From Taeniopygia guttata (lineage: Eukaryota; Chordata; Aves; Passeriformes; Estrildidae), in NCBI RefSeq assembly GCF_048771995.1, contig NC_133050.1, positions 6,620,501 through 6,684,500 on the forward strand: a stretch of 64,000 nucleotides of DNA. Reading direction: 5' to 3'. The translations under genes and the position numbers were made by a program. The notes below the pieces were generated by a model. It did no database searches, was not told the origin of the DNA, and worked only from the letters and a program-made list of their open reading frames with translations. This document shows positions 1,098-62,700 of the stretch, piece by piece. Every line of letters starts with the position of its first letter. Position 1 is the stretch's first letter.

Positions 1098-4000
1098 ATG
1101 GCCACGTCAGTGTCCCCAGACCCATCAGTGTCCCCGGAGGCGGCGGGCGGGCTGGTGGCGGTGGCACAGGTGACATGCACGGCGGACAAGGAGCACAACT
1201 GGCGGCAGTGCTCGGCGCTGGTGCGGCGCGCGGCGGCCGCGGGGGCCCGGCTGGTGTTCCTGCCCGAGGCCTTCGACTTCATCGGGGACAGCGCCCAGCA
1301 CAGCCTGGCGCTGGCAGAGCCCCTGCACGGGGACACCGTGCGGCGCTACCGCCGCCTGGCCAGGTGCGACAGCGGGATGGCACCGGGGTGGCACCTGGGA
1401 CAGCGGGAGTGGCACCTGGGGACAGCGCAGGGGCACCGGGGTGGTACCTGGGGGCACTGGGAGTGGCACCTGGGGCAGCGCGGGGGCACTGGGGGTGGCA
1501 CCTGGGGGCACCGGGAGTGGCACCCAGGACAGTGGAGTGGTACCCAGGACAGAGGGGTGGCACTGAGGGACAGGAGGGTGGCACTGGGGACAGTGGGGTG
1601 GCACTGGGGACAGCAGGGTGGCACTGGGGACAGTGGGGTGGCACTGGGGACAGTGGGGTGGCACTTGGGACAGCAGGGTGGCACCAAGGGACAGCGGGGT
1701 GGCACACAGGGACAGCGGGGTGGCACTGAGAGAAACCGGGAGTGGCACCGAGGGTCAGCAGTGGTGGCACTGTGTGTGTCCCCAGCGAGTGTCACCGTGT
1801 GTCCTCATGCCGTGTCCCTCTGTGTCCCCATGCCATGTCCCTCTGTGTCCCCAGGGAGTGTCACCGTGTGTCCCATGCCGTGTCCCTCTGTGTCCCCAGG
1901 GAATGTGACGTGTGGCTCTCCCTGGGTGGCTTCCACGAGCGTGGCGAGGACTGGGACAGCACCGGCCGCATCTACAACTGTCACCTGCTGCTGGACAGCT
2001 CGGGTGGGACACGGCCTCCCTGAGCCACCCTGTGCCACCCCTGTGTCACCCCTGTGTCACCCCCTGCCACCCCTGTGCCACCCCTGTGTCACCCTGTGTC
2101 ACCCCCGTGCCACCCTCTGCCACCCCTGTGCCACCCCGTGCCACCCTGTGTCACCCGTGCCAAACCTGTGTCACCCCGTGTCACCCCTGTGTTACCCCGT
2201 GCCACCCTCTGCCACCCTGTGCCACCCCTGTGTCACCCCCGTGTCCCCCAAATCCCCAGTCCCTGTGTCCCCACATGTCCCCACTGTCCCCAACCCCAGT
2301 AGTGTTTGTCCCCAGGCGCCCTGGTGGCTGTCCCCTGTGTCCCCAACCCCGTGGTGGCTGTCCCCAGCCCCGTGGTGGCTGTCCCCAACCCCGTGGTGGC
2401 TGTCCCCACTGTCCCCAACCCCGTGGTGGCTGTCCCCAGGTACCCTGGTGGCTGTCCCCCGTGTCCCCAACCCCGTGGTGGCTATCCCCACTGTCCCCAA
2501 CCCCGTGGTGGCTGTCCCCAAGCCCGTGGTGGCTGTCCCCCATGTCCCCAACCCCGTGGTGGCTGTCCCCAGCCCCGTGGTGGCTGTCCCCCGTGTCCCC
2601 AACCCGTGGTGGCTGTCCCCAACCCCTGGTAGCTGTCCCCCATGTCCCCAACCCCTGGTGGCTGTCCCCAGGCGCGCTGGTGGCCGCCTACCGCAAGCTG
2701 CACCTGTTTGACGCGGCGCTGCCGGGGGCGCCGGCGCTGAGCGAGAGCTCCTTCACCAACCCCGGCCGGGAGCTGCTGCCCCCCATCGACACCCCCGTGG
2801 GCAAGGTACGGTCCCCTGCTGTCCCCGAGTGTCCCTGAGTGTCCCCAAGTGTCCCCAAGTGTCCCCTGCCTTCGCTGATCCCCGGCATTCCCAAAAAATC
2901 CTGGAGCTGGCCGTGTGCCGCAGCCTGTGCTTCCCAGAGCTGTCTCTGTCCCGGTCCTTTACAGCCCTAAAGACTGACCCCACAGTGCCCAGGGTGTCCC
3001 CAAGTGTCCCCAGGGTGTCCCCAAGTGTCCCCAGGGTGTCCCCAAGTGTCCTCAGCCCTCAGTGACCCACGGTATTCCCAAAAAGCAGCTGGGATTGGCC
3101 GTGTGCTGCAGGCTGTGGGTCCTGGAGCTGGCCCTGCCCAAACCCCGGCCTTGACCCCACAGTGCCCAGGGGTGTCCCCAATGTCCCCAGTGTCCCCAAT
3201 GTCCCCAAGTGTCCCCCCCTGCAGCTGGGGCTGGCCTTGTGCTCTGCCCTACATTTCCCAGAGCTGACCCCATGCCCAGGGGTGTCCCCAATGTCCCCAA
3301 TGTCCCCAATGTCCCCGCAGCTGGGGCTGGCCGTGTGCTATGACCTGCGGTTCCCCGAGCTGGCCCAGGCCCTGCGCGGGGCCGGTGCCCAAATCCTGAC
3401 CTACCCCTCGGCCTTCACCGTCACCACCGGAGCCGCGCACTGGGAGGTGAGGGGACACCCCTGGGGACGTTGGGGACATCCAGGGGGGCTTGGGGACACC
3501 CCTGAGGGGGCTTGGGGACACCCCTGGGGAGGTTGGGGACACCCCTGGGGGCTTGGGGACACCGCTGTCCCCTCAGGTGCTACTGTGTGCCCCTGCCCCC
3601 CGTGCCCCCTGTGCCCTTGTGGGTGCCACCACTGACCCCTGGGTGCCCCCGCTGTCCCCTCAGTGTCCCCGCTGTCCCCTCAGTGCCACCACTGCCCCCG
3701 GGTGCCACCACTGACCCCTGGGTGCACCACTGCCCCCTTGGTGCCCCCGCTGCCCTCTGGGGGACACCACTGTCCCCTGGGGGACACCACTGACCCCTGG
3801 GTGACCCCGCTGTCCCATTGGTGACCCCGCTGCCCCCTGGGTGACACCACCGACCCCTGGGTGCCACCACTGACCCCGCAGGTGCTCCCGCTGTCCCTCA
3901 GTGACCCCGCTGCCCCCTGGGTGCCACCGCTGACCCTTGGGTGCCCCACTGACCCCCGGGTGCCCCCGCTGTCCCCTGGGTGCCACCACTGTCCCATGGG

Positions 4001-59700: not shown

Positions 59701-62700
59701 TGATCCCAGGGATTGGGGAACACGGTGATGCTGTAACACCCAGGGTGTGAGCTCGGGGACAATCCCAGGGATTGGGGATGACCCCAGGGATTTGGGAATG
59801 ACCCCAGGGATTTGGGGATGACCCCAGGGATTTGGGAATGACCCCAGGGATGGCGGGAGCACCTCGAGCTGCCCCTCCTCGGTGCAGGCGTGCAGTTTGA
59901 AGTGGCGGATGCTGATGGCAGAGATGACGTGGCCCTTGCGCCGCGAGTCGCACGAGCAGTGCGGGAAGGTGATCTCGTTGTAGCCCTCGCACGTCCGCAG
60001 CATGTTCAGGTACTGCGGGAACAGCCGCGTCACCGGGCTGCCACCGGGACCCCCGGGAATGCACCGGGGTGCCACCCAGTCACCGGGACCCCAGGGAGAC
60101 ACCGGGGTGCCAGGGAGTCACTGGGATGCCAAGGAATGCACCAGGATTCCAGGGAATGCACTGGGACCCCAGGGAATGCACCGGGGTGCCACCCAGTCAC
60201 CGGGACCCCAGGGAATGCACCGGGACCCCAGAGAATGCACCGGGGTGCCAGGGAATGCACCGGGACCCCCGGGAATGCACCGGGGTGTCACCCAGTCACC
60301 GGGACCCCTGGGAGACACTGGGGTGCCAGGGAGTCACTGGGATGCCAAGGAATGCACTGGGATTCCAGGGAATGCACTGGGACCCCAGGAAATGCACCAG
60401 GGTGCCATGGAGTCACCGGGACCCCTGGGAATGCACTGAGGTGTCAGGGAGACACCAGGACCCCAGGGAGTCACCGGGACCCCCGGGAATGCACCGGGGT
60501 GCCACAGAGTCACTGGGACCCCAGGGAGTCACCTGGACCCAGACACAGGCAGGGATTCCATGGGGACATTCCAGGGATTCCATGGGGACAATCCAGGGAT
60601 TCCATGGGGACATTCCAGGGAATTCACCCACCATGACCATCTTCCTCTGCTCGCAGAGCTTCTGCAGCTGGTAGGATTTCTCCTCGGCTTTGATGTAGCC
60701 TTTCTTGACGTCATCAACGGCCTGGGGATGGGAGGGAAAACGGGATAAAACTGGGAAAAATCCGGGACCTTGGGGTGGTTGGAGAACCTTGGGGTGCCTC
60801 AATCCCATAAAAACAACCAAAGCCCCATCCCAGTTTGGGATCAACTGTGGGACCCAAACGCCCTGTGAGGAGTTTTCCCCACCCACAGGGGAATTCCAGG
60901 TGGGAATTCTGTACCTGGGGGACCTTGGGGTGGCCTGAGAACTTTGGGGTGCCTCAATCCCATAAAAACAACCAAACCCTATCTGACTTTGGGACCAACT
61001 GTGGGAGCCAACCACCCCACAAGGCGTTTTCTCCACCCAGAGGGGCATTCCAGAGGAATTCCAGGTGAGAATTCCTGTTGGGAATTCCTCACCTAGGGGA
61101 CCCTGGGGTGGCCAGAGAACTTTGGTTGCTGCAATCCCATAAAAACAACCAAACCCTATCCGACTTTGGGACCAACTGTGGGACCCAAACACCCTGTGAG
61201 GGGTTTTCCCCACCCACAGGGGCACTCCAGAGGAATTCCAGGTGGGAATTCCGTACCTGGTGGAAGAAGTAGGCCACGGCCAGGTCGTTGTCGTTGAGCA
61301 GCGCCTCCTCCTCGGTGGTGAAGAGCCACTTGCGCAGGGTCAGGCACGTCCCCGGCACGGCCGAGGTGTAATTCTGCACGTAGAGCTTGTGGGGGAACTC
61401 GTTGGGAGCCAACTTCCGCACTGGGATCGGCCCGGGAAATCCCGGAGAGGCCACGGAATGTCGGGGTCAGGGCGTGGGGAGGACAGGGATGCCAGGAGAG
61501 CCAAAAAAAATCGGCCTTAAAATGGGGTTTTCCCACAGGGAGCAGTCAAAAATGGTCACAGATCCTTCCAACGTGACCCCAAATACTCCAGAATGTGCCC
61601 AAATCCATCTAGAATGTGCCCAAATCCTTCCAGAGTGATCCCAAATCCTTCCAGAGTGATCCCAAATCCTTTCAGTGACCCCAAATCCTCCCAGAGTGAC
61701 ACCAAATCCTCCCAGAGTGATCCCAAATCCTTCCAGAGTGATCCCAAATCCTTCCAGTGACCCTAAATCCTTCCAGAGTGACACCAAATCCTTCCAGAGT
61801 GATCCCAAATCTTCCAGAGTGATCCCAAATCCTTCCAGAGCGATCCCAAATCCTTCCAGTGACCCCAAATCCTTCCAGAGTGATCCCAAATCCTTTCAGT
61901 GATCCCAAATCCTTCCAGAGTGATCCCAAATCCCTCCAGAATGTCCCCAAACGCTTCCAGAGTGATCCCAAATCCTTCCAGTGACCCCAAATCCTTCCAG
62001 AGTGATCACAAATCCTTCCAGAGTGATCACAAATCCTTCCAGAATGTCCCCAAAACCTTCCAGAATGTCCCCAAAACCTTCCAGAGTGACCCCAAATACT
62101 CCAGAATGACCCAAATCCTTCCAGAGTGACCCCGAATACTCCAGAATGTCCCTAAATTATTCCAGAATGATCCCAAATTCTTCCAGAATGACCACAAATC
62201 CTCCAGGATGGTCCCAAAATCTTCCAGCGTTATCCCCGAATCCTCCAAAATGATCCCAAGCCCTTCCAATATTATCCCTGGATCCTTCCAGAATGATCCC
62301 AAATCCCTACAAAACCCCTGGAATCTGGAGGAACATCCCAAAAATCCCGGATGTGGTTCTGCATGGAGAGCTTGTGGGGGAACTCGTTGAGAGCCAACTT
62401 CTGCACTGGGAAAAGCTGGGAAATTAGGAAAAGATCCCCTCAAATTGTGCCAGGGGAAGTCCAGGTTGGATATTCGGGAATATTTCCCCATGGAAAAGGG
62501 GATCAGGTGTTGGAAGGGGCTGCTCAGGGCATGGTGGAGCCACTGTTTCTGGGAATTATCCCAAAAATTCCTGGAAGAGGCACTTGTGGGATGGGATTTG
62601 GTGGGATTGGCCTCAGTCTCAGGGGGCTTTTCCAGCCAGGACAATTCCCCATCCCTGGGAGTGCCCAATTCCAGCTTGGATCAACCTGGGAGGTCCCAAC

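Follow-up and report, generated by a model that had tools for sequence, protein, structure and literature searches.

Partial copies of exon edges and their splice sites in tandemly repeated zebra finch introns: probable exon stuttering in a songbird

A 64,000-nucleotide stretch of the zebra finch (Taeniopygia guttata) genome, here called the window, was found to carry partial copies of exon edges, together with the adjoining splice sites, in or beside seven genes: NIT1, DEDD, S100A10, TDRKH, MRPL9, CELF3, and SNX27. The sequence patterns indicate that this is very probably a zebra finch occurrence of "exon stuttering," a phenomenon named in chicken, mostly on its dot chromosomes, by Hron et al. 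in February 2026 (PMC12954441), and that it very probably arises by the mechanism proposed below. The chicken report also described the copying of splice sites and the possibility of alternative transcripts. The phenomenon is therefore already published, and the zebra finch occurrence and the anatomical detail are the addition made here. The seven genes were assembled as 43 exons from open frames, codon composition, and splice sites, with known vertebrate sequences used as leads, and all seven models splice in frame to continuous proteins. The models lack some terminal exons, namely MRPL9 exon 1, the CELF3 start, parts of SNX27, and the TDRKH end, and the start of NIT1 exon 1 is a guess. Pfam recovers the expected domains in the models; PDB chains match S100A10, SNX27, bL9m (MRPL9), and a Nit protein (NIT1); and the spliced DEDD model matches a Taeniopygia guttata record at 100% identity across 332 residues. 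The window spans positions 6620501 to 6684500 of contig C27 (8.195 Mb) in a 41-contig, 1.14-Gb genome, and this contig seems, from its S100A neighbors, to be the counterpart of chicken chromosome 25, on which the S100A9-S100A11 region lies (Strasser et al. 2014) and which is placed near the dot chromosomes yet outside them (Huang et al. 2023).

The edge copies lie on the intron side of the complete exon, upstream for acceptor edges and downstream for donor edges, and fade within the exon. For each edge, 30 exonic bases were scored against the adjoining intron, with 200 length-matched intron pieces from other genes as the null. Copies were detected in the intron on the edge's own side at 18 of 77 edges, versus 3 of 77 on the wrong side (p ≤ 0.01). 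At p ≤ 0.01, 11 of 39 acceptor edges (13/39 at p ≤ 0.05) were copied in the intron upstream of them and 2 of 40 in the downstream one; of the donor edges, 7/38 had a downstream copy and 1/37 an upstream copy. At a score of at least 20 the own side retained 8/39 acceptors and 4/38 donors, and the wrong side none (0/40 and 0/37, respectively). When the query was moved into the exon, the acceptor signal at p ≤ 0.01 dropped to 7/39 at +15, 3/37 at +30, 0/33 at +45, and 1/29 at +60, and the donor signal to 2/38, 2/36, 1/32, and 1/28 at the same offsets. All seven genes own at least one edge at p ≤ 0.01, and the claim of an earlier, sequence-only reading of this DNA that extra exon-edge copies are real in every gene was thereby borne out. 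Of the 17 edges listed in that reading, 14 are confirmed at p ≤ 0.01, provided that its exons 7 and 8 of CELF3 correspond to our f and g, and three fail, namely NIT1 exon 2, NIT1 exon 3, and CELF3 exon g; it had also missed the TDRKH exon 1 donor copy (score 15). Its statement that acceptor copies always lie upstream and donor copies always downstream was nearly right: across all offsets, 10 of 349 wrong-side tests reached p ≤ 0.01 (about 3.5 expected by chance), with scores of 11 to 17.5. Among the 18 edges, the MRPL9 exon 5 acceptor and the MRPL9 exon 6 donor are weak (score 11.5) and CELF3 exon g is of low complexity.

The bit-score screen of Hron et al. (2026) was rerun on the sense strand of the window. 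It returned 26 matches, 14 of which reached the passing level of 42.1 bits (10 upstream, 4 downstream, and 0 distal); these sit in nine introns or upstream flanks, all proximal to the source exon. Equal abundance in shuffled introns, which the sequence-only reading had named as grounds for giving up its proposal, was not observed: 20 shuffled runs gave seven matches with a maximum of 22.3 bits, and the passing matches range from 42 to 90 bits. Six of the seven genes pass, NIT1 being the exception. The source lies within 1 base of the exon border in 10 of the 14 passing matches and within 4 bases in 13, compared with more than 90% within 1 base in chicken, although our matches are few. Passing introns made up 7 of the 36 modelled here versus 190 of 5,572 in the chicken dot chromosomes (Fisher P = 0.0002), in a window that was picked because it looked unusual. 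The longest passing match spans 53 bases, and none covers a whole exon.

As a genomic control, CELF paralogues on contigs C2, C7, C12, C30, and C40 were modelled by homology with 800-base flanks, leaving out exons with no clear site or with a short flank. Strong edges (score ≥ 14) were found at 0 of 48 paralogue edges versus 14 of 78 in the window at the same flank length (Fisher P = 0.0009), and edges at p ≤ 0.01 numbered 1/48 versus 15/78. The tandem duplication across splice junctions proposed earlier stood up as something local, common in the window and not in the CELF control. Tandem Repeats Finder (TRF) repeats cover 36,082 of the 64,000 window bases, and they mark 23,197 of 30,754 intron bases (75%) versus 509 of 6,099 exon bases (8%). 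TRF cover was 68 to 81% at four CELF3 loci and 0 to 15% at the CELF paralogue loci; among 5-kb samples, four others on the window's contig gave 48, 29, 1, and 19%, and those on contigs C1 and C20 gave 0 and 1%. For introns of at least 300 bases, repetition across the acceptor junction was found at 26/35 at -60, 15/35 at -30, 10/35 at 0, and 0/31 at +45, and across the donor junction, in the same steps from intron into exon, at 27/34, 20/34, 7/34, and 0/30. With TRF repeats so much denser in introns than in exons, the copied edges look like overspill at the array margins, which the junction profile fits.

The introns here are mostly tandem arrays, which we propose to be under continuing local duplication. 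Once such an array extends to a splice junction, the duplicated segment would include the junction, so that the edge and its splice site reappear toward the intron while the exon itself stays complete. The direction of the copies had been explained by selection keeping one intact exon, but no selection is needed: whenever an intron tail and the exon head next to it are duplicated in tandem, the unbroken exon stays on its own side and the partial copy falls on that of the intron. New copies would be added mainly beside the exon, with older ones displaced outward and decaying as non-coding DNA. The nearest copy was the most similar, or tied, at 10 of 12 multi-copy edges (4.3 expected, P = 0.0006, edges taken as independent), which suggests that new copies are indeed added mainly next to the exon. 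The molecular step in these G-rich repeats may be slippage during replication or unequal exchange at meiosis, a choice that Hron et al. (2026) likewise leave undecided. The copies are often strong decoy sites, but they lie outside the true pair, and their use could do no more than lengthen the exon. By exon definition, the sites nearest each other across an exon are paired if the introns on either side are long (Carranza et al. 2022, PMC9225289); this preference would plausibly make outward decoys tolerable. Tentatively, and as a possibility that we rate well below the proposal above, exon edges might act as fixed, selected templates for outward-decaying copies, with exon definition rendering the decoys near-neutral, arrays persisting across songbird families (as for the DEDD exon 1 donor), and isoforms occasionally taking up a copy.

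Records from other birds were compared with the window. The DEDD exon 1 edge is repeated in a thrush protein (P0035, Turdus) and in isoforms X2 of two blackbirds (P0121 and P0122, from Agelaius and Molothrus), the only three proteins returned by a search of the region. At peptide resolution these repeats have the finch joint, Gly-Tyr-Trp-Gly-His shortly before His-Asp/Glu-Leu-Leu-Pro-Tyr, with one thrush unit reading Gly-Tyr-Arg-Gly-His, and in all three predicted proteins the last copy joins exon 2 directly. A crow protein (P0004) repeats the 5′ end of DEDD exon 3, an edge with no copies in the finch. Thus one array, that of the DEDD exon 1 donor, seems to be old and others lineage-specific. 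Within zebra finch, the predicted UniProt MRPL9 protein P0125 also reads through repeated MRPL9 exon 2 edges, and it implies at least 531 bases from the intron anchor to exon 2 versus 249 in the window, measured between anchors chosen by eye; a tblastn search of P0125 against the window gave no match. Because P0125 also differs by one residue in exon 2, it is probably another allele, and at this one locus the length of MRPL9 intron 1 seems to vary between zebra finch records.

A list of 62 copies at 18 edges was used to examine decay; three of these edges, at NIT1 exons 2 and 3 and CELF3 exon g, are not counted as firm cases. The list dropped copies with fewer than 10 exonic aligned bases or a score below 18, its queries were cut at 60 exonic bases so that longer copies are shortened, and it omits the MRPL9 exon 6 donor, at which no copy cleared the score limit, and the MRPL9 exon 5 acceptor. 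The copies are 58 to 100% identical over the aligned exonic part, and most have diverged from the exon. Mismatches by codon position were equal (107/650, 104/637, and 108/647), which argues that the copies are under no coding constraint. With the remaining dinucleotides in the alignments as the baseline, the acceptor AG was intact in 24 of 33 copies versus 23.0 expected, and the donor GT in 24 of 26 versus 18.5 (P = 0.007); of 36 acceptor copies, 3 were excluded because their junction lay outside the alignment or too near its end. With a weight matrix built from the window's own sites and applied to copies with a mapped junction, 19/26 donor and 22/35 acceptor copies scored above the weakest tenth of true sites, against a background of 7% of 1,410 intronic GT and 26% of 925 intronic AG dinucleotides, and 16/26 donors and 10/35 acceptors matched or exceeded the strength of their own true site. 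Decoy sites are thus neither removed nor clearly protected; purging of them was considered as a separate possibility, and AG/GT retention gave no sign of it. An in-frame open extension is possible for 11 of the 50 copies with an intact dinucleotide.

That the copies are functional alternative exon extensions under selection appears quite improbable. Strong splice sites, the use of a copy donor by the predicted X2 isoforms of the two blackbirds, and the preservation of frame by length in 26 of the 50 intact-dinucleotide copies (16.7 expected, copies of one array not being independent) would favor it; however, codon-position bias is absent, acceptor AG is retained at the background rate, and among the nine nearest in-frame copies, picked by eye, 6 were open versus 6.1 expected from the intron baseline. 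Coding selection on the copies was therefore not supported, nor, in the form given, was the earlier suggestion that they are a possible source of protein extension. The companion suggestion, that they are a possible source of alternative splicing, may hold, in that copies carry strong sites and predicted isoforms of two blackbirds join a copy's donor to exon 2.

If exon edges were themselves specially prone to duplication, for instance through co-transcriptional R-loops at the junctions, and were not simply swept in by intron arrays, the greater similarity of the copies nearest the exon would be expected, yet repetition declines from intron to exon with no peak at the junction, and we consider this explanation improbable. 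Chance similarity or shared GC-rich low complexity does account for CELF3 exon g, which matches with a score of 17.5 on both sides and was rejected as a case, and probably for NIT1 exon 2 (p = 0.47, not significant), likewise rejected; some NIT1 matches are also short, at 12 to 22 bases. As a general account it is nonetheless very improbable, given a null drawn from other introns of this very window and passing matches that stand far above every shuffled score, by which it is refuted for those 14. Misassembly of hard GC-rich introns strikes us as extremely improbable: tandem arrays are error-prone, but equivalent DEDD exon 1 copies appear in the thrush and blackbird records, P0125 also reads through repeated edges at MRPL9, and an artefact sits poorly with copies that have mostly diverged.

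Several points weigh against exon stuttering as the explanation, or against parts of its proposed mechanism. The chicken process is tied to dot chromosomes, from which Huang et al. (2023) kept chromosome 25, the seeming match of our contig, apart, and the evidence consists of assembled sequence and protein records. The family-matched contrast is small (2/17 at CELF3, one of low complexity, versus 0/48 at its paralogues), and SNX27 offers a single copy 985 bases from the true junction, which is not clearly tandem. The donor GT excess leans on TDRKH exon 9 (12 of the 26 copies) and falls short of significance edge by edge (Wilcoxon P = 0.44). The nearest-copy analysis has the weak exons 2 and 3 of NIT1 among its 12 edges, similarity showed no significant rank correlation with distance (nine edges negative, three positive; sign test P = 0.15), and the nearest-copy result may partly reflect gene conversion or chance.

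The copies are described below by gene in window coordinates, with DEDD and SNX27 on the minus strand and the others on the plus strand. In NIT1, the exon 3 acceptor array (2276 to 2671; true junction 2672) is a short-unit repeat of six copies, each with an acceptor and 12 to 22 exonic bases, and is weak (p = 0.045). The exon 4 acceptor copies (2901 to 3320; p = 0.005, score 20) have junctions at 2901, 3089, and 3225 before the true junction at 3321 and hold 51 to 52 exonic bases each, 75 to 83% identical, and the exon 5 acceptor array (3562 to 4760; true junction 4761) has six partial copies (p = 0.005, score 15). The last NIT1 exon carries a 42-bp in-frame tandem repeat of 3.2 copies (4960 to 5095), which is coding and not an intronic copy; it follows the nitrilase domain, and the first of its units can be aligned with a worm Nit protein, the rest barely. 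In DEDD, the exon 1 acceptor copies (11173 to 11724) have junctions at 11265, 11347, 11430, 11599, and 11706, with the true junction at 11173. They carry the start-codon context and so supply extra upstream strings resembling ATG GCG GGC CGG AAG, one of them full besides the true one. The exon 1 donor copies (10514 to 10800) place their first intronic bases at 10665 and 10533, 135 and 267 bases from the true donor, with 53 to 56 exonic bases that are 94 to 95% identical and CCG|GTGAGT retained, and the exon 3 donor copies (8008 to 8760) number nine, eight with GT. A predicted DEDD protein of the suboscine Smithornis (P0095) continues beyond exon 1 into repeated intron sequence similar to finch 10514 to 10800, with the exon edge unrepeated. 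Separately, two DEDD records, P0001 and P0002 (one zebra finch, the other a UniProt passerine cluster led by a zebra finch entry), are 332 and 334 residues long and differ in the Gly/Ala-rich start of the protein (11090 to 11167).

The last exon of S100A10 has acceptor copies at 20043 to 20449, with junctions at 20126, 20249, and 20349, a partial copy at 20043, and the true junction at 20450. TDRKH has single donor copies of exon 1 (22564 to 22610; GG in place of GT), exon 3 (24242 to 24310; junction 24287), and exon 6 (26736 to 26805; junction 26793), as well as exon 9 acceptor copies (28164 to 28463) with junctions at 28183 and 28305 and the true junction at 28464, and 12 exon 9 donor copies (28663 to 29447), all with GT and 10 with CAG|GTGTGT. 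TDRKH exon 3 also encodes 11 consecutive glutamates (23931 to 23965) within a region assigned by Pfam to a KH domain. In MRPL9, the exon 2 acceptor copies (31393 to 31602) have junctions at 31410 and 31522, and the true junction is at 31603; the true acceptor (31588 to 31603, ending TTTAG) scores -4.5 versus 6.3 and 11.0 for the upstream copies, and P0125 implies another sequence there. At its N terminus a Poecile MRPL9 protein (P0175) has about four repeats, each of some 20 residues; this coding expansion, from another songbird, may be compared with window position 31603. The last MRPL9 exon (true junction 35584) has acceptor copies at 35034 to 35583 with junctions at 35054, 35290, and 35473, of which the one at 35290 is identical to the exon at 43 of 43 bases. 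The CELF3 exon f acceptor copy (46456 to 46505; junction 46476, true junction 46744) matches 29/29 exonic and 20/20 intronic bases, and the SNX27 exon C acceptor copy (62346 to 62424; junction 62405, true junction 61420) matches 52 of 59 exonic bases.

These results extend the chicken finding to a songbird and, by the apparent correspondence of the contig, to a chromosome outside the chicken dot set. They also supply introns rich in strong, already formed decoy splice sites, the avoidance of which is directly testable, and indicate that gene models on such chromosomes can absorb copy-derived peptides, as P0004, P0035, P0121, P0122, and P0125 do. In the literature searched, the terms "sequence stuttering" and "exon stuttering" were found in Hron et al. 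(2026) alone, and within the limited scope of that search we met, in the available portion of their report, no test of decay by codon position, of the strength of the copied sites, of a gradient with distance, or of breakpoints shared between species. Tandem repeats in introns of GC-rich bird genes had been described earlier (Beauclair et al. 2019).

Compared with exon stuttering as described in chicken (PMC12954441), the window shares partial edge copies with splice sites, arranged in tandem in adjoining repeat-covered introns; it yields matches that pass the same bit-score screen, and its host introns are heavily covered by tandem repeats (23,197/30,754 bases, with CELF paralogue loci at 0 to 15%). 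It differs in species and in a contig whose seeming counterpart, chicken chromosome 25, is not among the ten chicken dot chromosomes; in one array common to songbird families, where Hron et al. suggest independent expansion; and in the coding repeat of NIT1, where the chicken account reports no block crossing into exons. Intronic variable number tandem repeats, or minisatellites, consist of short tandem units of variable copy number. The arrays described here are likewise built of short tandem units, but these include exon sequence and the full splice-site sequence. Tandem exon duplication also duplicates exonic sequence in tandem, but here only the edges are duplicated, never the whole exon. 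In intron gain by tandem genomic duplication (PMC4974935), duplication likewise supplies splice sites; here, by contrast, the copies fall in an existing intron and make no new one, and no extra intron is needed, because the modelled exons splice in frame and the DEDD product equals the annotated record.

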